Source: Candidatus Lindowiibacteriota bacterium
GTDB lineage: Bacteria > Lindowbacteria > 2-12-FULL-62-27
Assembly (NCBI GenBank): GCA_023249255.1
Contig: JAHFCY010000014.1
Span: forward strand, 1-27,612
Length of the DNA: 27,612 nucleotides
Direction of reading: 5' to 3'
Position 1 is the first letter of the stretch. Each line of letters begins with the position of its first letter. Below the pieces are notes generated by a model, which was not told the DNA's origin, ran no database searches, and worked only from the letters and a program-made list of their open reading frames with translations. Positions 16,371 to 26,425 of this stretch are shown one piece after another. The position numbers were made by a program, and so were the translations under genes.

Positions 16371-18071
16371 TTACGTTTTTCCGAGGACTTTTTCCACCCG
16401 CAAGGTGTTGATCACGTCTTTCTTCGTGAGCCACCCCCGCCGGGCCGCCGACACCCCGAACCGCATGTCGTCCAGGCCTTCGACCCGGTGCGCGTCGGGA
16501 TTGATGCTGATTTTCACGCCCAGCTCCGCCGCTCGTTTGGCGTTCGCCGGATCGATGTCAAGCCGCTGTGGATTGGCGTTGAGTTCGATCGCCTTGCCGT
16601 GTTTTGCGGCGCATCGGAGCACTGCTTCCCAGTCGAATTCGTAACCCGGGCGGCTCAAAAGCAATCGGCCGGTCGGATGGGCCAGAATGTTCACGCGTGG
16701 ATGCTCCAGCGCCCGGCAGATGCGTTTGGTCATCTCGTCTGATTTCATGCCGAAATTGCTGTGGATTGCCGCGATCACGACGTCGAGTTTTTCCAGCATC
16801 GCATCGTCGTAATCGAGCGTTCCGTCCGGCAAAATGTCGACTTCGCTCCCGGTCAGAATCCGTATGCCGGGATTTTTTTTGTTCAAGGCTGCGATTTCCG
16901 ATATCTGCTTGTTCAACCGCTCTTCCGAGAGACCGTTCGCGTAGGAGGACGTCTTTGAGTGGTCGGTGATCGCCAGATAGCTGTACCCGCGCGATTTCGC
17001 CGCGTCCGCCATCGCCTCGATGCTTGCTTTGCCGTCGCTCCAGGTTGTATGCACGTGAAACACGCCGCGGACGTCGTTTTCCGTAATCAGGTCCGGCAGT
17101 CGCCCTTCGGCCGCCGCCTCAATTTCGCCGCGGTCTTCCCGAAGTTCCGGCGGAATGAAGTCGAGTTTGAAAATTTTAAAAAATGCCTCCTCGTCCTTCG
17201 CCGCGATCCTCCGATTTCCTTTGAATACACCGTACTCGCTGATCTTGAGCCCCCGGTCCTTGGCCAGACTTCGCATCGCGATATTGTGCGCCTTCGAGCC
17301 GGTGAAATGATGGAGCGCGTAGGGGAACTCAACGTCCTTGACGATCCGCAAGTCCGCCTGGATTTTTCCGTCCAGCCTGACGCTTGTCTTGGTCTCGCCG
17401 CTGCCGATGACGTCGCTCACGCCATCGGCCTTCACGAACCACGCCGACACATCGTCCGGCCGGTCGGAACTGACGACGATGTCCATGTCCTTCACGATTT
17501 TTTTCCGCCGCCGAAGCGATCCGGCGATCTCGATCCGCCGAGCCGCCTTGCATTTTTTAAGATGGGCGACCAGCAATTCCGCCAGCGGCAGAACGTCGGC
17601 CAGAAGGTGCTGGTCTTTGAATGTCGACAGAAGCTGGATGCCGTCCAAAATTTTTGTCTGCGATTTTTCTCCGAATCCATCCAGCCCGGCCAGCCTGTTT
17701 CCTTTGCAGGCTTCCTCCAGCTCCGTTACCGTGCTGATTTTCAATTTGTCGTGCAGGAGCCGCGTGCGTTTGGGTCCAAGAGACGGAATCCGGAGCATCT
17801 CGACCAGCCCCGGCGGAATTTGCGCCTTGATCTCCTCGTAATACGCCAGCCGCCCGGTCGCGCAATACGTGTGTATTTTTTCCGAAATCGCCTTTCCGAT
17901 CCCCGGAATTTCCTGAAGTTGTTTCTCGTCCAGGTCCGCGATCCGCCCCGGATACGTGTCGACCGCCCGAGCCGCGTTTTCGTAAGCGCGGATTTTGAAC
18001 ACATTCTCGCCCAGAAGTTCGAGGAACACGCCGATTTCAGAAAGAAGCTCGGATATCGGATGATTGTCCAT
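16371..18071 (-). CDS. polX: DNA polymerase/3'-5' exonuclease PolX
   Basis: A 566-residue family X DNA polymerase for gap filling in base-excision repair. Order: 8-kDa-like domain (1-80) with helix-hairpin-helix LQEIPGIGKAI; a second HhH (IPSLGPKRTRLL) near 95-106; palm with GSLRRRKKIVKDMDIVV, giving catalytic D195 and D197 and third D240 (IQADLRIV); and finger residues around FTGSKAHN. A C-terminal PHP domain starts with FHVHTTWSDGK (about 338-348) and continues through ITDHSKTS, GSEVDIL, AIHSNF and NAHR-like metal ligands (NPDAHR). Length matches bacterial PolX. It starts at ATG 18071, 12 bases after the GT2 stop, preceded by AGGA. Confidence 0.96.
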   Translation of the reverse strand: MDNHPISELLSEIGVFLELLGENVFKIRAYENAARAVDTYPGRIADLDEKQLQEIPGIGKAISEKIHTYCATGRLAYYEEIKAQIPPGLVEMLRIPSLGPKRTRLLHDKLKISTVTELEEACKGNRLAGLDGFGEKSQTKILDGIQLLSTFKDQHLLADVLPLAELLVAHLKKCKAARRIEIAGSLRRRKKIVKDMDIVVSSDRPDDVSAWFVKADGVSDVIGSGETKTSVRLDGKIQADLRIVKDVEFPYALHHFTGSKAHNIAMRSLAKDRGLKISEYGVFKGNRRIAAKDEEAFFKIFKLDFIPPELREDRGEIEAAAEGRLPDLITENDVRGVFHVHTTWSDGKASIEAMADAAKSRGYSYLAITDHSKTSSYANGLSEERLNKQISEIAALNKKNPGIRILTGSEVDILPDGTLDYDDAMLEKLDVVIAAIHSNFGMKSDEMTKRICRALEHPRVNILAHPTGRLLLSRPGYEFDWEAVLRCAAKHGKAIELNANPQRLDIDPANAKRAAELGVKISINPDAHRVEGLDDMRFGVSAARRGWLTKKDVINTLRVEKVLGKT

Positions 18072-18083
18072 GCCGATCCTATT

Positions 18084-18845
18084 TTATGCGCTCCCGCGCC
18101 GTCCCGCAATCGACGCGTATTTCAACTTAAGCCGGATCAACGACCCCATCGACCGGACAATCGCAGAGGCCACACGCACGCGCGAGTCGGCGCGGTTTGT
18201 CCACCGAACCGGAATTTCGTGGAGGTGCCGGCCCGCGCGTTTCGCCCGAAGGATGACCTCGACGTCGAATGTCCAGTCGCGGCAGAGAAGGTCACGGAAG
18301 AGTTCCCGCGCAACGTCTGTCCGAAACGCCTTGAGGCCGCATGTGAAATCCGACACGTCGGGCATGAACGCCATGCGTACCATGCGGCGGAAAATTTCCC
18401 CGCAGGTTTCCCGGATCCACGGCTGATGCCGCTCGATGACCGATCCCGGCAGTCGTCGGGACGCGATTACAACGTCGCGGTCGTCCAGCGCCGCGGCGAA
18501 CGGCTTGAAAAAACTCACGGGGACCGACAGATCGGCGTCTGTGAACAACAGCCGTTCCGTCCGGCACGCCTCGATGCCTGTCACAATTGCCATCGCTTTG
18601 CCTTCGCACCGATCTTTTCGGATCACAGAGCCGGCGTCGTTCAATGCGGCCTTCGCGGTTTCAGCAGTGCCGTCCGTCGATCCGTCATCGACGACGATGA
18701 GTCGCCACTCCCTCGCTGACCCGGTCGTCGCCGACTGGATCGTTCGGATCGTCCCGGCGATGACGGCCGACTCGTTGTGCGCCGGAATAATGATCGTGCA
18801 TGAGCCACCCGTCCGCCCGGCCGTCTCCGATGGTGCGCCGCTCAT
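18084..18845 (-). CDS. GT2 family glycosyltransferase (dolichyl-phosphate mannosyltransferase-like)
   Basis: A 253-residue protein from ATG 18845, overlapping the rtcB stop as ATGA. The GT-A fold motifs are clear: CTIIIPAHNESAVIAGTI, LIVVDDGSTDGTAE, LLFTDADLSVP (DAD metal/donor site), then SRRLPGS and FTCGLKAFR with RDWTFDVEVILRAKRAGRHLHEIPVRW. This pattern belongs to the DPM1/GtrB-like group, which transfers a sugar from a nucleotide donor to polyprenyl phosphate. There is no membrane anchor, so it acts at the cytoplasmic face. It could supply the lipid-linked sugar for the GT-C enzymes at 1255 and 4995, although it lies in a different operon with RtcB and PolX. The sugar is unknown. Confidence 0.9.
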   Translation of the reverse strand: MSGAPSETAGRTGGSCTIIIPAHNESAVIAGTIRTIQSATTGSAREWRLIVVDDGSTDGTAETAKAALNDAGSVIRKDRCEGKAMAIVTGIEACRTERLLFTDADLSVPVSFFKPFAAALDDRDVVIASRRLPGSVIERHQPWIRETCGEIFRRMVRMAFMPDVSDFTCGLKAFRTDVARELFRDLLCRDWTFDVEVILRAKRAGRHLHEIPVRWTNRADSRVRVASAIVRSMGSLIRLKLKYASIAGRRGSA

Positions 18846-20260
18846 CCCTTGATCACGCAAAGAGGTTTTAGTCGCGCCACGCGGTTGGCCAGACCGTTGG
18901 CCACGACCGCGTCGACCACCTGTTCAATGTCTTTGTATGCTTCCGGCGCCTCTTCCGCGAGTCCCTTTTTCGATCCGCCCCGGACTTCGATCCCCTTTTG
19001 ACGCAGTTCTTCAATGAGTCTGCCGACGTTCACGCGCTGTTTGGCGGCCGTTCGCGAGAGAACCCGGCCCGCTCCGTGACAGACCGTGAAATAACTTTTT
19101 TCCGCCGCTGGCGTCCCGACCAACAGATACGACGCCGTGCCCATGTCGCCCGGAATGATGACCGCCTGCCCGGGGAATGCGCGCGTCGCTCCCTTGCGGT
19201 GAACGAGAAGCCTCCGCATCCGGCCTTCCCGTGCGTAATCCTCTTCTTTTGCGATGTTGTGCGCGACGTCGTAGACCAGCCTCAATCCGAGTGACTGCGA
19301 ACTTCCCGAAAATATTTTTTGGAAAACTTTCCGTACGAGATGCATGAGCGCCTGCCGATTCGCGAACGCGTAATTCGCCGCCGCCCGCATGGCGCCGAGA
19401 TATTCGCGGCCGAGATCGTCACTCACCGGCAGGGGAGAAAGCTGGGCGTCGGTGACCTGGATGCCGAACGTCGACAGCGCTCTCTTCGAACGTTTCCAGA
19501 ATTCGTCCGAGACCTGATATCCCAACCCGCGCGATCCGGAATGGATCATCACTGCCAGCGTTCCCTCCGCCACGCCCCATTCCGCCGCCCGCTCCGAATC
19601 AAAGACTTTCTCGACGGCCTGGACTTCCATGAAATGATTGCCCGATCCCATCGTCCCGCATTGATCTTCCCCGCGCTTTTTCGCCGCGTCCGACACCACG
19701 TCCGGATCGGCGCCGTCCAGCGATCCATGATCCTCGATCCGCTCGATGTCTTCCGCCTCGCCATATCCCATCTCCACGATCACCGGCGCGCCCTCGCGAA
19801 GAACACGATCGAGCGCCGCGCCTTTCAGCCGGATCGGACCGCCCACGCCAAGTCCGCTTGGAATTTTCCGAAACATTTCCTCCACGAGATCGACTTTCCG
19901 CTCGCTCGTCAATTCCGCCGCCGAAATATTCGTCGTCATGAGCCGCACGCCGCAGTTGATGTCCGCGCCGACCCCGCCCGGGCTGACCCATCCATCCCGC
20001 GCGTCAAACGCCGCCACCGCGCCGATCGGAAATCCATATCCGAAATGCGCGTCCGGCATGAGGTGGACCGGATCGATCACGTCCGGCATCGACGCCACGT
20101 TCACGATCTGCGTGTATGTTTTGTCCGCGCGAATCGCGGCCAGAATTTCCCCCGTGGCGTACACGTGCACGTCGCTTCGCATGCCCGGCACGCCGTTTTT
20201 TCGGATGAGATAGTGATGGGTTCCGACAGATTCAAAATTCGGTTCGGGCATCGTACTCAC
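18842..20260 (-). CDS. rtcB: RNA-splicing ligase RtcB (RNA 2',3'-cyclic phosphate / 5'-OH ligase)
   Basis: A 472-residue RtcB, a GTP- and Mn-dependent ligase joining 2',3'-cyclic phosphate (or 3'-phosphate) and 5'-OH RNA ends. Motifs: LMPDAHFGYGFPIG (68-81), GGVGADINCGVRL with metal-binding D100 and C103, GTMGSGNHFMEV (H209), MIHSGSRGLG (H240), YDVAHNI (H334) and VCHGAGR, whose His (H395) is the residue expected to be guanylylated. All active-site residues are present. GTG 20260 is chosen because AGGAG lies six bases upstream; ATG 20251 is an alternative. It lies 9 bases after archease, its activating partner, and its stop overlaps the GT2 start. Confidence 0.97.
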   Translation of the reverse strand: MSTMPEPNFESVGTHHYLIRKNGVPGMRSDVHVYATGEILAAIRADKTYTQIVNVASMPDVIDPVHLMPDAHFGYGFPIGAVAAFDARDGWVSPGGVGADINCGVRLMTTNISAAELTSERKVDLVEEMFRKIPSGLGVGGPIRLKGAALDRVLREGAPVIVEMGYGEAEDIERIEDHGSLDGADPDVVSDAAKKRGEDQCGTMGSGNHFMEVQAVEKVFDSERAAEWGVAEGTLAVMIHSGSRGLGYQVSDEFWKRSKRALSTFGIQVTDAQLSPLPVSDDLGREYLGAMRAAANYAFANRQALMHLVRKVFQKIFSGSSQSLGLRLVYDVAHNIAKEEDYAREGRMRRLLVHRKGATRAFPGQAVIIPGDMGTASYLLVGTPAAEKSYFTVCHGAGRVLSRTAAKQRVNVGRLIEELRQKGIEVRGGSKKGLAEEAPEAYKDIEQVVDAVVANGLANRVARLKPLCVIKG

Positions 20261-20269
20261 AGCCGGCTC

Positions 20270-20704
20270 CTACACGTCGACGATGTAATGGAGCTGGGTC
20301 CGCTCCAGTGTCGAGATCGCCCGCAGATCGTGGTAGGTGACGCCTTTGATTTCGGTTTCGAGTTTCAGATTTAAATTGTCGGCGTTCTGAAAATAAATCT
20401 CGCCGTCGATCCGCCCCTTGCGTGTGTCCGCGCGGATCCGCCAGCCGCTCGCAACAAGCTGCCGCTGGTAATACGCGTCAAGGTGTGTGGCAATCCATGT
20501 GTGCAGAAGATCCGTGGTCGATGGTTCGGCCAGATGGATCGGCTCCGGGGTTCCGCGATTGCCGGTCCGAAACAAATCCGCCGCGCCCTGCCCAAACAAA
20601 ATCTCATACATCGCCCTCACCGCGTCACAAAACGCTTCCTCCGCCGTGAACGCGCTGACCTCCACGCCGTAGTCGGCCGTATGGTCCGTGAATCGGTACG
20701 CCAT
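20270..20704 (-). CDS. Archease, RtcB cofactor protein
   Basis: A 144-residue protein with the archease start Y-R-F-T-D-H-T-A-D-Y-G-V, a middle region TTDLLHTWIATHLDAYY, and the ending VTYHDLRAI followed by a short beta-strand, typical of the metal-binding archease fold. Archease speeds RtcB guanylylation and allows multiple turnover. The gene directly precedes rtcB in the same direction, which supports the call. There is no Shine-Dalgarno. TATACT sits six bases before the ATG, so the message probably begins at or next to the start codon (leaderless). Confidence 0.93.
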   Translation of the reverse strand: MAYRFTDHTADYGVEVSAFTAEEAFCDAVRAMYEILFGQGAADLFRTGNRGTPEPIHLAEPSTTDLLHTWIATHLDAYYQRQLVASGWRIRADTRKGRIDGEIYFQNADNLNLKLETEIKGVTYHDLRAISTLERTQLHYIVDV

Positions 20705-20806: not shown

Positions 20807-20933
20807 ATAAGTTCGGATAAACAGGGTAAAGGGAGGGAACCTTTGACCGCTATGCTCTACTGATCGTCACGATTGTGGAAAACTTTAGCGCTTCACCCCG
20901 CTTTCATGAAAATTTTATGCCATTTTTCGGATC

Positions 20934-20962
20934 TTGCGCGTTTTTCCTTACCCTGATATGTC
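20934..20962 (+). promoter_or_regulatory. Candidate promoter of the DegT-family aminotransferase (near leaderless)
   Basis: TTGCGC (20934-20939), a 17-base spacer and TATGTC (20957-20962) give a moderate sigma-70-like promoter. The predicted start is near 20969, two bases before ATG 20971. The absence of a Shine-Dalgarno before that ATG fits a leaderless message. Confidence 0.4.
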
Positions 20963-20970
20963 TGTCGGCC

Positions 20971-22110
20971 ATGAAACCGGCGGCAAAGATTCCCGTGATG
21001 GATCTGACGGCCCAGGATCAGCCGGCCGGCAAGGCGATCCTCAAGGCGATTCAGCAGGTGATCAAGCAAAAAGCGTTCATCAATCCGCCCATCCTCGGAC
21101 AATTCGAGCAGGCGTTCGCCAAATGGGTTGGCCGAAAAGAGTTTGTCGGCGTCAATTCCGGCACGGCCGCGCTGTTTCTGGCGCTCAAAGCCATGGGGAT
21201 CGGGCCGGGCGACGAGGTCATCACGACGCCGTTTACCTTCATCGCGACTCTCGAATCGATCATCTACGCCGGCGCCAAACCGGTCATGGCCGACATCGAC
21301 CCCGACACGTTCTGCCTTTCGCCCGTCGCCGTCCGAAAAGCGCTCACTTCCAGGACAAGGGCGATCATTCCGGTCCATCTCTACGGCCACCCCTGCGACA
21401 TGGACGAGTTCATGGCCATCTCCAGGGAGGCAAATGTCAAAATTCTGGAAGACGTGGCCCAGGCCCACGGCGCAACGTGGCGCGGCCGGAAAGTCGGGGT
21501 GTTTGGCCACGCGGCGGCGTTCAGCTTTTACCCCGGAAAAAATCTGGGCGCCTATGGGGATGCCGGCGGAGTCGCGACCGACGATCCCGGCATTGCCGAG
21601 CGCCTGCGGATTCTTCGAAACCACGGCCACCACCAGAAATATATCCACGATGTCGAAGGTTACAACGAACGGCTCGACGGTATGCAGGCGGCTGTCCTCC
21701 TCGCCAAACTGCCCCACCTCGACCTCTGGATCAAACAGCGCCAGGCGATCGCAAAAGATTATAACCGCGCTTTGAAATCTCTCTCGGACCAAAAAATAGG
21801 GATTCGGATTCCGCCGGTTCGGCCAGAGACGACCCACGCCTACCACCTGTACGTACTTCGGATCAAAGACCGGGAACGCATTTCAAAGTCTCTGACTGAG
21901 GCTGGGATATCGACGGCCGTTCATTATCCGATACCGCTCCACCTACAGCCGTGTTTCGCGTATCTCGGTTACAGGAGGGGAGACTTTCCGGAATCCGAAC
22001 GGGCGGCGCAGGAGGTCCTCTCCATTCCGCTCTATCCGGGCATGACGAAATCCCAGGAGAAGCGAGTTATCAACACAATTATCAACATTTTTAGTGGAAA
22101 ATCTGTCTGA
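20971..22110 (+). CDS. DegT/DnrJ/EryC1/StrS-family PLP aminotransferase
   Basis: A 379-residue sugar-type aminotransferase from ATG 20971. NSGTAALFLALKAMGIGPGDEVITTPFTFIATLESI is the N-terminal PLP-phosphate and substrate region. ILEDVAQAHGATW carries the cofactor-ring Asp (D161). AAFSFYPGKNLGAYGDAGGVAT contains the Schiff-base lysine (K190). RNHGHHQKYIHDVEGYNERLDGMQAAVL and THAYHLYVLR are family hallmarks. These enzymes aminate nucleotide-linked keto-sugars for O-antigen, pilin or S-layer glycans. The frame extends upstream to 20875, but those residues are unlike the family, and 20971 gives the usual beginning. It stands alone between divergent operons, so its pathway partners are not visible; the membrane glycosyltransferases nearby could be consumers. 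Confidence 0.93.
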   Translation: MKPAAKIPVMDLTAQDQPAGKAILKAIQQVIKQKAFINPPILGQFEQAFAKWVGRKEFVGVNSGTAALFLALKAMGIGPGDEVITTPFTFIATLESIIYAGAKPVMADIDPDTFCLSPVAVRKALTSRTRAIIPVHLYGHPCDMDEFMAISREANVKILEDVAQAHGATWRGRKVGVFGHAAAFSFYPGKNLGAYGDAGGVATDDPGIAERLRILRNHGHHQKYIHDVEGYNERLDGMQAAVLLAKLPHLDLWIKQRQAIAKDYNRALKSLSDQKIGIRIPPVRPETTHAYHLYVLRIKDRERISKSLTEAGISTAVHYPIPLHLQPCFAYLGYRRGDFPESERAAQEVLSIPLYPGMTKSQEKRVINTIINIFSGKSV

Positions 22111-22132
22111 CAGGGAGGTTTTCGTCCATAAT

Positions 22133-22165
22133 TTGTCAACAATTTTTTTCACATCGTGTTGACAA
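22133..22165. repeat. Inverted repeat TTGTCAACA / TGTTGACAA
   Basis: Two perfect 9-base arms (22133-22141 and 22157-22165) are separated by 15 bases, just after the aminotransferase gene and in an AT-rich stretch. The related TTATCAACA occurs twice at the end of that gene (22067-22075, 22079-22087). This could be a protein-binding site (DnaA-box-like) or a weak hairpin behind the gene. Confidence 0.5.
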
Positions 22166-22255
22166 TTTATCCCATTTCCGGGAAAATTTTTTCCCAAAAA
22201 TCAAAGTATAACCTGTTGAAATTCATATAGATTATAATTCTTCGAAAAAATTAAC

Positions 22256-22283
22256 TTGATTTTTTCCACACCCGATGTAATAC
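22256..22283 (+). promoter_or_regulatory. Candidate sigma-70-type promoter of the structured RNA
   Basis: TTGATT (22256-22261), a 16-base spacer and TAATAC (22278-22283) give a good vegetative promoter at the end of an AT-rich stretch. The expected transcript start is near 22290, at the left end of the GC-rich structured region. No coding start follows within 500 bases, which points to an RNA gene. Confidence 0.6.
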
Positions 22284-22289
22284 TCCGGT

Positions 22290-22647
22290 GGTCCATTCGT
22301 TATAGTTTGGAAGCGAAAGCTTCCGAGCGGTCAAGGATGACGGGTGAGGTGACGGAGTAGAATCCAAGCCTCGGGGGCGGATGCCCCGAGTAGGGAAGCG
22401 GTGAATGGAGAGAGCCAGTCAACTGAGGGGCGGGCACTCCAGCCGAAGCAGGACATTATCCATTCATTGATATCAATGCCGCAGGATTGAATGCGGTAAT
22501 CGCCGGCCCAAGACAGGTGAGGCTAATATAATATAGAGGGAGGGACGCGGCTGAACCAGCGGTTCGGCTCATCGCGTCGCGTTTAATACGCCCATATTTC
22601 CCCCTCTCGAAGGTGCCCATTCTTCACGGATGGGCACCTCTTTTTTT
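22290..22647 (+). ncRNA. Candidate structured non-coding RNA of about 360 nt, class unknown
   Basis: No plausible gene runs through this stretch, but it folds into many consistent helices. GGAAGC-GAAA-GCTTCC (22309-22324) has a GNRA loop. CTCGGGG/CCCCGAG pairs 22370-22376 with 22384-22390. A 10-pair helix joins 22399-22408 and 22460-22469. A 7-pair helix joins 22477-22483 and 22492-22498. A branched domain is closed by 22535-22540/22602-22607 and encloses 22544-22549/22573-22578 continued by 22550-22557/22561-22568, plus a small hairpin at 22579-22591. A promoter precedes it and an intrinsic terminator ends it. I saw none of the conserved RNase P, tmRNA, SRP or 6S segments, nor a cobalamin, T-box or Mg riboswitch core. 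It could be a long leader for the downstream HicB gene, but the terminator and a separate promoter argue for a free RNA. Confidence 0.7.
22611..22647 (+). terminator. Strong intrinsic terminator
   Basis: AGGTGCCCAT (22611-22620) pairs perfectly with ATGGGCACCT (22630-22639), possibly two pairs more inside the loop, and is followed by C and seven T (22641-22647). This is a textbook Rho-independent terminator on the plus strand. It ends the candidate RNA, as no gene lies between it and the aminotransferase stop more than 500 bases away. Confidence 0.9.
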
Positions 22648-22793
22648 GACTACAGGGATGTAGGAATCCCGTGGGAACCCATACACGAGTCGGAGTGAGT
22701 TGTGCAGGGATGGGCGAAGCGGGGTGAACACACGGACGGCTTGATACCGTTTTGAAATGGCTCATTTCCGGTTCCTTTTGGTAATTGTCTTGC
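22648..22793. other. Gene-free stretch with small hairpins
   Basis: No credible gene is seen. The stretch has short complementary segments: GGGAT/ATCCC right after the terminator, TGGG/CCCA, and CCG..GAAATG-GCT-CATTTC..CGG (helix 22754-22759 with 22763-22768). There is no T-tract and no match to a known element. It leads to the HicB promoter. Confidence 0.4.
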
Positions 22794-22837
22794 TTGCGTG
22801 CGTCCATCATTGACGGTAAGATTTGGCTTGGAGGTGT
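22794..22837 (+). promoter_or_regulatory. Candidate hicB promoter and ribosome-binding site
   Basis: TTGCGT (22794-22799), a 17-base spacer and TAAGAT (22817-22822) form a sigma-70-like promoter, with transcript start near 22829. GGAGGTG at about 22830-22836 is a strong Shine-Dalgarno before ATG 22844 and defines that start. Confidence 0.5.
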
Positions 22838-22843
22838 AACGAC

Positions 22844-23056
22844 ATGAAATACCGTGTCTACATTCAGCAGGATGAGGACGGCATATTTGTGGCCGAGTGT
22901 CCGAATTTGCCGGGGTGCGTGTCACAGGGCAGGATGAGAGACGAGGCAATGAAAAGCATCGAGGACGCGATTGCCGGTTATCTGGCCAGTCTCAAAAAAC
23001 ACGGCGATGCGATTCCCCCGCCGATTTACGAGGACGTAATTGAGGTTGCCGGTTGA
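22844..23056 (+). CDS. hicB: HicB-family antitoxin
   Basis: A 70-residue protein: MKYRVYIQQDEDGIFVAECPNLPGCVSQGRMRDEAMKSIEDAIAGYLASLKKHGDAIPPP. This is the partial RNase-H-like fold of HicB (often annotated as a type II antitoxin or UPF0150), with the hallmark ECP-LPGC-SQG segment. There is no C-terminal DNA-binding domain, as in the short HicB class. It begins at ATG 22844 with GGAGGTG upstream. In intact pairs HicB blocks the HicA mRNA interferase. Here the partner directly downstream is broken, so this looks like an orphan antitoxin, possibly kept to neutralise a HicA elsewhere or simply not yet lost. Confidence 0.88.
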   Translation: MKYRVYIQQDEDGIFVAECPNLPGCVSQGRMRDEAMKSIEDAIAGYLASLKKHGDAIPPPIYEDVIEVAG

Positions 23057-23215
23057 GTCCCAAACTGCCCGTCGTCTCCGGCCTCCACGTCGTTAAGATT
23101 TTTGAAAAGCTCGGTTACCAATCCGATCATCAAACCGGCACTCTTATATATCTGTAGCGCAGAGCTTGATTCCCACCAAAAAAAGGAATGTGATCGAACT
23201 GGCACGTGGGGTGAC
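23053..23215 (+). pseudogene. hicA: Decayed HicA toxin
   Basis: A TTG start overlapping the hicB stop (TTGA) opens a 34-codon frame, ending at TAG 23155-23157. It reads SPKLPVVSGLHVVKIFEKLG and YQSDHQTGTLIYL. This matches the HicA start (KLPVVSGKEVIKALEKLGF followed by a GSH motif), but the catalytic GSH His is replaced (GTL) and the frame stops where the family continues for about 25 more residues. In another frame just after it (about 23160-23215) DSHQKKECDRTGTW resembles the HicA ending H-K-K-E-L-D-R-G-T-L. This suggests a frameshifted and eroded gene instead of a clean truncation. The end coordinate is approximate. Confidence 0.65.
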
Positions 23216-23245
23216 TTGCCTCTTTTTCCGCGCGTGCGATACAAT
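23216..23245 (+). promoter_or_regulatory. Candidate promoter of the AmmeMemoRadiSam/F420 gene run (leaderless)
   Basis: TTGCCT (23216-23221), an 18-base spacer and TACAAT (23240-23245) give a fair sigma-70-like promoter with transcript start near 23252. That coincides with GTG 23252 and is six bases before ATG 23258. No Shine-Dalgarno is present, so the message appears leaderless. Confidence 0.5.
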
Positions 23246-23257
23246 CACTTCGTGACG

Positions 23258-24115
23258 ATGATAAATGTTCGTCCTTCTGTCTTGGCCGGTACATGGTATC
23301 CGGAGGATCCAGTCGAACTTCGTCTCTCGATCGAATCGTGGATGGCCCGGCATCGACAAGGTCTGTCCGCACCGGCGCCGGTCGGGCGTCTGATCGGCCT
23401 GGTTCTTCCGCACGCCGGCCATCTCTACAGCGGATTGACGATGGCCGCCGGCGTTGCCCGAATTGCTCGTGATCGCGTTTCGCGCGTCGTGCTCATCGGT
23501 CCGTCCCACCGCATGGCGGTCCGCGGCGCGGCGGTGTCGGGCGCGACGCATTTCGAAACTCCGCTTGGCGCGGTTCCGGTCGACGCCGATGCGGTTCGGC
23601 GATTGCATGCGGCCGGGGTCGGGATAACCGACGCGCCTCACGCCAAAGAACACAGCCTTGAGATCATTCTGCCGTTTCTGCAAGCGGCGTTGGAGTCGTT
23701 TTCGATCGTTCCGATCCTCGCGGGGCTGATCGATGATGACGATCGCGAATTTTTGGGCCGGCATCTTGGTGAACTTCTCGACGACCGCACGATTCTCATT
23801 GCGAGTTCCGATTTCATTCATTACGGCGCCGAATTCGATTACATGCCTGACGTCGGCCGCAACGTCCGCGCGGGCGTCCGAAAATTGGACGAAGAGGCGA
23901 TCGAATACATCCGGGCGATGGATGTCGAAAAACTTCTGGCGTTTCGCCGGAAAACAGGCGCGACCATCTGCGGGATTCTGCCCATCGCCGTCGCGATGGC
24001 GGCGTTTCCCAAATCCACGCGCGTCGACTATGTCCATTACAGCCAGAGCGCGGATGTGTCGGGCGACACCGGCCACATGGTGAGCTACGCCGCGCTCGCC
24101 TTTTACGCGCCGTGA
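23258..24115 (+). CDS. amrB: AmmeMemoRadiSam system protein B (MEMO1 family)
   Basis: A 285-residue MEMO-family protein from ATG 23258 (GTG 23252 is equally possible). NVRPSVLAGTWYPEDP is the family start. Motifs of the metal site follow: VLPHAGHLYSGLTMA, VVLIGPSHR, AKEHSLEIILPFLQ, ILIASSDFIHYG and a Cys in ATICGILPI. The end has HYSQSADVSGDTGHMVSYAALAF. MEMO proteins resemble class III extradiol dioxygenases; human MEMO1 binds copper or iron through His, His and Cys. In prokaryotes the gene travels with AMMECR1 and a radical SAM gene; the radical SAM member is not in the window. The next gene starts within its stop (GTGA). Confidence 0.93.
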   Translation: MINVRPSVLAGTWYPEDPVELRLSIESWMARHRQGLSAPAPVGRLIGLVLPHAGHLYSGLTMAAGVARIARDRVSRVVLIGPSHRMAVRGAAVSGATHFETPLGAVPVDADAVRRLHAAGVGITDAPHAKEHSLEIILPFLQAALESFSIVPILAGLIDDDDREFLGRHLGELLDDRTILIASSDFIHYGAEFDYMPDVGRNVRAGVRKLDEEAIEYIRAMDVEKLLAFRRKTGATICGILPIAVAMAAFPKSTRVDYVHYSQSADVSGDTGHMVSYAALAFYAP

Positions 24116-24711
24116 GTGATCCCGTCTGGATTCCGCCCGAGTCCCGCGCGATGCTTCTTGCGCTGGCCCGCGCCGCAGTTCGGCGCGCCGCCGCGGGTAA
24201 ATCACGCGAGCCGGTGGATCCTCTGCCGGATTCGCCGCCTATCCTTTACGAAAAGGGCGCGACCTTTGTAACACTGACCCAAAATGGACGATTGCGCGGA
24301 TGTATTGGAACCATCGAGGCCCAGGATCCTCTGTGGCGCGCTGTGTGGGACGCGGCTTGGGACGCCGCAACGGGCGATCCCCGGTTTTCGCCGGTCAGAC
24401 CCGACGAGGCGGCGGCCCTCAAGATCGAAATTTCAGTTCTGACGCCGATGCGGGAAATACCGTCGTGGGAAGAGTTCGTCGCGGGCCGGGACGGCATTCT
24501 GATTTCCGCCGCAGGCGGACGCGGCGTGTTTTTGCCGAAGGTCGCCGAAGAAATGGGCTGGACGCGCGAGCAAACGTTGACGGCTCTGTGCAAAAAGGCG
24601 GGCCTTCCGCCTGACGCTTGGAAACGGCCCGGCATGAAATTTCGGACGTTCGGCGCGGAAGTGTTTGGCGAACCGGATTCTTCTGTTGTGGACGGTCGGC
24701 CGCAAAGATAA
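24112..24711 (+). CDS. amrA: AmmeMemoRadiSam system protein A (AMMECR1 domain)
   Basis: A 199-residue protein from GTG 24112, overlapping the protein B stop by four bases (GTGA). It has the AMMECR1 signature: FVTLTQNGRLRGCIGTIEAQDPLWRAVWDAAWDAATGDPRFSPV, then ALKIEISVLTPMREI and an ending GVFLPKVAEEMGWTREQTLTALCKKAGLP..W. Human AMMECR1 is linked to Alport syndrome with elliptocytosis; the bacterial function is unknown. A role together with the MEMO protein and a radical SAM enzyme in a modification reaction has been suggested. Here it is followed by F420 synthesis genes. Confidence 0.93.
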   Translation: MSDPVWIPPESRAMLLALARAAVRRAAAGKSREPVDPLPDSPPILYEKGATFVTLTQNGRLRGCIGTIEAQDPLWRAVWDAAWDAATGDPRFSPVRPDEAAALKIEISVLTPMREIPSWEEFVAGRDGILISAAGGRGVFLPKVAEEMGWTREQTLTALCKKAGLPPDAWKRPGMKFRTFGAEVFGEPDSSVVDGRPQR

Positions 24712-24774
24712 CATTCGGACATGACCGACAGGATGAAGGGAATCCCGCGAAGTCCACGGATGGACGGGAGCGGG

Positions 24775-25764
24775 ATGAAAGCCATGCAGATCAGGTGTGT
24801 GGTTCTGGCGGGCGGTGTTGGCGCGGCAAAATTTGTCGAGGGGCTGGCGCGGGTGGCGGACCCGTCACGGCTCACAATTATCAGCAACACCGGCGACGAC
24901 GTCGAACTGCACGGCCTCTGGATCAGTCCCGACGTCGATACCATGCTCTACACGCTGGCCGGAATCGCAGATCCCGACAAGGGCTGGGGAATCCGCGGCG
25001 ACACGTTTGAAACCCTGGACGCGCTGGGCCGACTCGGCGAGGAGACATGGTTTTGGCTGGGCGATCGCGATCTGGCGACGCACCTCTTTCGGACGCGTCT
25101 TCGCGCCGAAGGACGCATGGCAACGGCCATCACGCGGCGGATTGCGAAACGGCTCGGCGTCTGCGCGACGGTTTTGCCGATGACCGATGGGTCCGTCCGA
25201 ACGATGGTGCGCACGACTCAGGGGGATCTGCCGTTTCAGGAATATTTTGTGAAACACGCCTGCCTGCCGGATGTGGTCGATGTTCGTTTCGAAGGCGCCG
25301 AATCCTCTGTCCCGTCGCCGGACGTTTTGCGCGCAATCGAATCGGCCGACGTCATCGTCATCGCGCCGAGCAATCCCATCGCCAGCATCGGGCCGATTCT
25401 CGCTCTGCCGGGCATTTGCCATGCATTGAAATCCGCGCGCGCGCCGAAGATCGCCGTCAGTCCGCTGGTTGGCGGCCGGTCGATCAAAGGTCCGAGCGAT
25501 CGGATGATGAGCGCGAAAGGATTCTCGCCGGACGCGATCGGCGTCGCAAATTATTACCGGGGGCTGATCGACGGTCTTGTGATCGACCGACTCGACGTAG
25601 CCCGCGAACCTTCCATCCGCACGCTCGGGTTGGACGTGCTCGTGACCGACACCCTCTTGACGTCGGCGGACCGAAAAACGGCGCTGGCAAAAGAAACGAT
25701 CGAATGGGCGAATACATTCCATGACCAACATCGTCATTCCCGTCAAAAACCCGTCCTCTGCTAA
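24775..25764 (+). CDS. cofD: 2-phospho-L-lactate transferase CofD (F420 biosynthesis; FbiA in actinobacteria)
   Basis: A 329-residue protein from ATG 24775, just behind GGGAG. ATG 24784 and ATG 24721 are alternatives. VVLAGGVGAAKFVEGLARV is the nucleotide-binding start. LTIISNTGDDVELHGLWISPDVDTMLYTLAG is the characteristic CofD segment. VIVIAPSNPIASIGPILALPGI and AVSPLVGGRSIKGPSDRMM complete the active site. CofD transfers the phospholactyl (or phosphoenolpyruvyl) group from a guanosine diphosphate carrier to Fo, making F420-0. The last 44 bases overlap the start of cofC in another frame, so the two are strongly coupled. Fo synthase and CofE are not in the window. Confidence 0.95.
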   Translation: MKAMQIRCVVLAGGVGAAKFVEGLARVADPSRLTIISNTGDDVELHGLWISPDVDTMLYTLAGIADPDKGWGIRGDTFETLDALGRLGEETWFWLGDRDLATHLFRTRLRAEGRMATAITRRIAKRLGVCATVLPMTDGSVRTMVRTTQGDLPFQEYFVKHACLPDVVDVRFEGAESSVPSPDVLRAIESADVIVIAPSNPIASIGPILALPGICHALKSARAPKIAVSPLVGGRSIKGPSDRMMSAKGFSPDAIGVANYYRGLIDGLVIDRLDVAREPSIRTLGLDVLVTDTLLTSADRKTALAKETIEWANTFHDQHRHSRQKPVLC

Positions 25765-26425
25765 ACAGCGGCTCGGCGACGTTTTGACGCCGGACCAGCG
25801 CCGGGAACTTGCCCTGGCGATGCTGGATCACGTCGTCGAGCAGACATCCGCCGCGGCGTTGCCGCACCACATCCTCGTTGTCACCGATTCGGCCGAGATC
25901 GAGTCGCGTGTCCGTCCCCGCGGCGTGTCCATCCTGCTGGAAGAGCGGGCGCGAGGCGAGACGGAGGCGGTCGAGGAGGCGACGCGATGGTCGATTCGGA
26001 ACGAGTTCGAACGTCAGCTTGTCATTCCGGCCGACATGCCGAATCTTACGTCGGCGGACATCGATACGCTGTTGTCGGAACCTGCGCCCAAGCCTTCTGT
26101 GGTTCTTTCACCCGCAGTCGGCGACGACGGCACAAACGCGATCCTCACATCGCCTCCCGACGCGATAACATTCCGGTTCGGCCGCCGAAGTTTTCCGGAT
26201 TATGTCGAGCAGGCGCGCCGGCGCAACATTGCCTGTAAGATTCTCCGCCTGCCGAATCTGGTGCTTGATCTGGATTCATTCGAAGACGTCAAGCAGTTTT
26301 TGGATCAGACAACGGCCATGGATGGCCAAGTGTCGAACGGGACAGGGATGTCAACCGTTCGACCGGCGGCCGGACCGCTGTTTCGCCTTCTCTCCGGGTG
26401 GAATTTACGCGAACGCGTGAACTGA
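25721..26425 (+). CDS. cofC: 2-phospho-L-lactate (or PEP) guanylyltransferase CofC (FbiD in actinobacteria)
   Basis: A 234-residue nucleotidyltransferase beginning MTNIVIPVKNPSSAKQRL, the CofC signature, followed by LTPDQRRELALAMLDHVV, ILVVTDS, LVIPADMPNLTSADI (metal/donor site), VVLSPAVGDDGTNAIL and FRFGRRSFPDYVEQA. It activates 2-phospholactate or phosphoenolpyruvate with GTP to give the substrate of CofD. The order cofD then cofC with a 44-base overlap leaves little doubt. About 25 C-terminal residues after DQTTA are poorly conserved. It converges on the vapC stop with only 7 bases between, and no clear terminator is seen there. Confidence 0.94.
   Translation: MTNIVIPVKNPSSAKQRLGDVLTPDQRRELALAMLDHVVEQTSAAALPHHILVVTDSAEIESRVRPRGVSILLEERARGETEAVEEATRWSIRNEFERQLVIPADMPNLTSADIDTLLSEPAPKPSVVLSPAVGDDGTNAILTSPPDAITFRFGRRSFPDYVEQARRRNIACKILRLPNLVLDLDSFEDVKQFLDQTTAMDGQVSNGTGMSTVRPAAGPLFRLLSGWNLRERVN

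Follow-up and report, generated by a model that had tools for sequence, protein, structure and literature searches.

The interval that separates the gene of a DegT aminotransferase (20875-22110) from a HicB-like gene and, beyond it, the Memo, AMMECR1, CofD and CofC genes (AmmeMemoRadiSam/F420 operon) raises the question of whether it holds an RNA gene, as an earlier note on this DNA had proposed, and whether such an RNA falls into a described class or acts on its own. The interval lies in a stretch of 27,612 nucleotides, here called the window; it is contig 59 in an assembly (G000) that spans 3.35 Mb and is 88.7% complete. Among the relatives that we compared, only two belong to the same family as the window genome: Ca. 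Lindowbacteria bacterium RIFCSPLOWO2_12_FULL_62_27 (MFPR01000004; G001), a member of another genus, and a third family member (G002), whose genome is 81% complete.

A BLAST search against 98 genomes returned, beside the window's own sequence, one homologue, which was found in G001 in two segments and which is flanked there by DegT and Memo, with gene order and orientation as in the window. When positions 22111-23251 were compared by BLAST with the 643-base intergenic region of G001, alignment in the expected orientation was obtained inside the RNA only; its flanks do not align, and nothing is conserved past the terminator. By structure-aware alignment the two RNAs are 64% identical overall, while the identity of the neighbouring proteins is 56% for Memo and 62% for DegT. 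Near-invariant blocks of 15, 21 and 36 bases stand out, the nearly unchanged segments being ACGGAGTAGAATCCA, GAGYAGGGAAGCGGYGAATGG, CATTATCC, CGCCGGCYCAAGA and the 36-base run at 22587-22622. The RNA is present as a single copy in each of the two genomes, in each of which the 25-mer CGCCCATATTTCCCCCTCTCGAAGG likewise occurs once and nowhere else within 3 mismatches. The interval had been described as lacking a credible protein gene, and this is borne out, as there is no conserved open reading frame and the short frames of the two genomes lie in different frames. A small protein on either strand was rejected for the same want of conserved frames, as was the minus-strand frame running through the invariant block, which has zero synonymous changes and diverges straight after the block.

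The signals that would delimit the RNA are also shared by the two genomes (Table 1). As to the promoter assigned to it in the earlier note, the -35-like element stands, since it is conserved together with its spacing, the conserved CCATTC following TTGATT at a distance of 37 bases in the window and in G001 alike; for the -10, AATACT is a better choice than TAATAC. AATACT is a weak match to the consensus that was absent from the list of a simple promoter scan, and its counterpart in G001 is TGG-GATGAT with an identical 17-base spacer. At the other end, the terminator has the perfect stem and the seven T that were ascribed to it, with its stem-loop spanning 22611-22639, but the stem counts 12 pairs rather than 10. 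The identical -35 element, the equal spacing and the conserved blocks together indicate purifying selection on sequence and layout, and we consider that the syntenic, block-conserved homologue in a second genus provides strong evidence for selection on an RNA element at this place. Fold energy by itself cannot assign the strand, since the reverse complement, too, is more stable than dinucleotide shuffles; it is the predicted promoter and terminator that favour the + strand.

Table 1. Features of the proposed RNA and of its downstream neighbour, in window positions
Feature	Position	Strand	Evidence or remark
-35-like element TTGATT, inside AACTTGATTTT (22253-22263)	22256-22261	+	identical 11-mer in G001
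Probable -10 AATACT, TGT before it (extended -10 like), spacer 17	22279-22284	+	read from sequence
Proposed RNA, ~357 nt	22291-22647	+	start placed by the promoter, end by the terminator; homologue G001:C4; without Rfam match
Predicted 5' domain: four hairpins enclosed by the helix CCAUUCG/YGAAUGG (22293-22299 with 22402-22408)	22291-22409	+	equal fold, each sequence alone
Hairpin GGAAGC-GAAA-GCUUCC; in G001 GGAA-GGUAA-UUCC	22309-22324	+	folds of both
Hairpin GUCA-RGGA-UGAC	22330-22341	+	pairs at probability 0.7-0.93 in the window and in G001
Hairpin with internal loop, around GGA-GUAGAA-UCC; holds the 15 invariant bases ACGGAGTAGAATCCA	22348-22370	+	alignment, folds
Hairpin GGGGC-N4-GCCCC	22374-22387	+	alignment, folds
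Conserved GAGYAGGGAAGCGGYGAAUGG, its end forming part of the 5' domain closing helix	22388-22408	+	19 of 21 bases identical in G001
Hairpin CCGCA-GGAUUGAA-UGCGG	22479-22496	+	equivalent G001 hairpin CCGAUC-GGAA-GAUCGG
Conserved CGCCGGCYCAAGA	22501-22513	+	window/G001 comparison
36 contiguous invariant bases: UACGCCCAUAUUUCCCCCUCUCGAA and terminator 5' arm	22587-22622	+	window/G001 comparison
Intrinsic terminator: 12-pair stem, 5-base loop, then C and T7	22611-22647	+	conserved in G001
Memo promoter-like TTGCCT-N18-TACAAT (G001 TTGCCC-N17-TACAAT)	23216-23245	+	not part of the RNA

Measured against dinucleotide shuffles, the predicted fold had a z of -5.2 for 22284-22647 and of -4.6 for the RNA of the window (-3.4 without the terminator), and the G001 homologue reached -3.4, which fell to only -1.6 when its terminator was left out. 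The 5' domains (~118 nt), folded alone, gave an identical helix set in both genomes. With the variable sites shuffled in one of the two sequences, so that the agreement expected from the invariant bases alone served as the baseline, we found the agreement of the 5' domain to be borderline (fractions 0.07-0.08, counting pairs within 2 columns); across ~70 predicted pairs the two sequences show 2 double and ~9 single compatible changes. The hairpin at 22309-22324, described before as GNRA-capped, is present in both genomes, but its loop in G001 is not a GNRA tetraloop. Farther downstream, the 10-pair long-range helix that had been drawn between GUGAAUGGA and UCCAUUCAU (near 22459-22467) is missing in G001, where other sequence follows the conserved CATTATCC. 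The hairpin at 22479-22496 differs from its G001 counterpart in stem sequence and carries GGA in the loop in both, and for the 3' domain as a whole the agreement between the window and G001 showed no excess over shuffled variable sites (n=2 sequences). When each homologue is folded singly at full length, the two structures differ, and the C-rich CCCCCUCU can pair with 22425-22434 in a consensus fold or, in the ensemble of the window's RNA, with 22535-22543. Thus, of the highly structured RNA with its list of helices, what stands is the 5' junction common to both genomes, on borderline agreement, while the long-range helix does not and the branched 3' domain lacks an excess in these two sequences; the detailed fold in the earlier note is over-read. 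On the basis of the modelled folds, the 5' domain is probably the folded core of the RNA.

The position of the RNA upstream of, and codirectional with, the same operon in both genomes raised the possibility that it is a long 5' leader of Memo-AMMECR1-CofD-CofC, that is, a riboswitch or attenuator with a signal-controlled terminator. The sequence of the terminator arm is indeed unusually conserved, and two pairing partners are conceivable for GAAUGG at 22403-22408, the 5' CCAUUC and CCCAUUC of the terminator arm, so that the RNA resembles attenuating leaders and riboswitches in having a helix-closed 5' domain of which one strand could pair with the terminator arm. It differs from them in that the downstream gene has a promoter-like sequence of its own and lies at a long and variable distance. 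In both genomes this candidate promoter of Memo stands by the start codon, its TACAAT ending 6-7 bases ahead of it amid sequence that is otherwise unalignable, which would leave a read-through message without an evident ribosome-binding site. From the terminator to the Memo start there are ~605 bases in the window, with the HicB gene and HicA-like remains between, versus ~200 unrelated bases in G001, and conservation stops at the terminator. Since Memo appears to have its own promoter and the distance differs so widely, we consider a riboswitch leader unlikely.

Several further observations concern the surroundings of the RNA. The Memo message is apparently nearly leaderless (23216-23254), a layout that DegT in G001 may share. 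The HicB-like antitoxin gene between the RNA and Memo (22844-23055) is missing at the equivalent place in G001; it is followed from ~23055 by a frame judged by eye to be HicA-like, with an early stop near 23157, and the whole (22844-23210) is probably a decayed toxin-antitoxin pair. At 23252-26425, the genes of the AmmeMemoRadiSam B and A proteins adjoin cofD and cofC of F420 biosynthesis, and further genes of the run in G001 encode an F420 ligase and an oxidoreductase that depends on F420; the presence of F420 genes beside Memo and AMMECR1 in both genomes suggests that this pair is linked with F420 in Lindowbacteria. On the other side, adjoining RtcB RNA ligase and archease genes (18842-20704) are divergent from DegT, and RtcB adjoins DegT in G001 too. 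Before them, a + strand open frame of 586 amino acids (16959-18719) has zero Pfam matches and overlaps a - strand frame of 566 amino acids.

As to known classes, a search of Rfam 15, riboswitches included, gave 0 matches above the gathering cut-off, and scans of both homologues at E<=10 with permissive filters gave chance matches only, in agreement with the RNA having been left unassigned. There was no covariance-model match to RNase P RNA (RF00010) at 22200-22700, nor to bacterial SRP RNA (RF00169) or 6S RNA (RF00013) at the locus, and neither ARAGORN nor Rfam found tmRNA (RF00023) in the region of the RNA. True RNase P RNA lies at G000:C20 and G001:C4:99517, true SRP RNA at G000:C168 and G001:C2, and matches to 6S RNA at G000:C259 and G001:C4:314990 exceed the cut-off; a true tmRNA is found elsewhere in G001, and G000, an incomplete genome, gave no tmRNA match above the cut-off. 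Given that RNase P, SRP and 6S RNA are encoded elsewhere in both genomes and tmRNA elsewhere in G001, the RNA is none of these. A cobalamin riboswitch, suggested by eye from the brief resemblance of AGGGAAGCGGUGAAU to its core, was rejected, as neither homologue matches it at E<=10.

It is also very improbable that the RNA belongs to a known class but has diverged so extremely that the Rfam models miss it. Lindowbacteria form an isolated phylum, and the models are built on few genomes of such phyla; yet they do detect RNase P, SRP and 6S RNA here and tmRNA in relatives, and the permissive scans yielded chance matches only for both homologues. A CsrB/RsmZ-type titrator, whose loop GGA motifs would keep CsrA from messages, has a slender chance at best, for although the RNA is stand-alone with its own terminator, comes close in length to CsrB (~370 nt) and carries loop GGA in two hairpins common to both genomes (GUCA-RGGA-UGAC and that at 22479-22496), and although csrA is present in G001, CsrA was not found in the window's genome (88.7% complete), the GGA counts show no enrichment over what composition predicts (11 observed against 8.1 expected in the window, 10 against 7.9 in G001), and the 36-base invariant 3' block would be left unexplained.

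The distribution of the RNA is narrow. A covariance model of the 5' domain, run over 386 genomes, placed it in the window genome and in G001 only, and a pattern scan of GTDB species genomes returned the same Lindowbacteria contig and one chance match only. In G002 (81% complete) none was found by BLAST, covariance model or pattern; a search for Memo in that genome was likewise negative, and its best DegT counterpart sits in another gene cluster. Covariance matches in G007, G084 and at a second place in G001 were rejected because their blocks are broken, their surroundings are coding-like and their E-values are at chance level over 386 genomes. A pattern match in Desulfobulbaceae (L009) lies inside an open frame and does not align beyond the motif, and those in 36 viral contigs are 16-base chance matches with weak model scores. 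A mobile element or repeat was dismissed on the single copy per genome and the lack of any phage or plasmid match. The RNA is probably restricted to the Lindowbacteria lineage, a phylum that one paper calls closest to Spirochaetes (PMC12236494).

The position in two genera and the conservation of the sequence, with no conserved frame, no known family and a separate promoter-like sequence for Memo, led us to read 22291-22647 as an RNA gene. We consider it likely, judging from sequence comparison, that this is the stand-alone gene of an undescribed ~357-nt non-coding RNA of Ca. Lindowbacteria with its own sigma-70-type promoter and terminator. The earlier note is right that there is a real RNA gene here and rightly placed it in no known class; its view that the RNA acts on its own accords with the syntenic homologue, the missing Rfam class, the housekeeping RNAs lying elsewhere and the separate downstream promoter-like sequence.

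Such an RNA would act in trans. The 5' domain, with its closing helix around four hairpins, would be a folded core and perhaps a protein-binding site, whereas the invariant C-rich 3' segment UUUCCCCCUCUCG would probably be the active end. This segment is complementary to G-rich tracts of the RNA itself (22425-22434 and 22535-22545), which could mask it; once unmasked it could pair, for example, with G-rich ribosome-binding sites. The folded 5' domain together with the self-maskable invariant segment suggests a trans-acting RNA that binds protein, pairs with G-rich targets, or both, although pairing through the C-rich segment, taken on its own, is a doubtful guess. No Hfq was found in G000, G001 or G002, all of them incomplete genomes, and its absence from what was found in either carrier weakens Hfq-aided trans base-pairing. 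That the RNA represents a new functional class, for instance by serving in an RNA-protein machine or through a catalytic or sensing activity of its own, in Lindowbacteria and close kin only, strikes us as quite improbable.

Few large conserved bacterial RNAs exist, and those that have been characterised often have unusual functions; the present one adds a conserved RNA gene outside the known classes from a little-studied phylum, and with its exact coordinates, homologue and conserved blocks a direct search for relatives, transcripts and partners becomes possible. Like 6S, SRP and RNase P RNA and tmRNA, it is single-copy and of a similar order of size, but these have their own loci elsewhere in the carriers (for tmRNA, in G001 only). 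With OLE, GOLLD, ROOL, HEARO and raiA, stand-alone structured RNAs that comparative genomics brought to light (PMC12286853), it shares the character of a long intergenic non-coding RNA with conserved blocks, and the function of GOLLD and ROOL is unknown as well. It differs from all five in giving no covariance-model match to any of them, and, unlike such orphan RNAs, it has no phage or tRNA-island context and no HNH, IscB or IsrB neighbour, being a chromosomal, single-copy element. As such it joins the orphan conserved bacterial RNAs.
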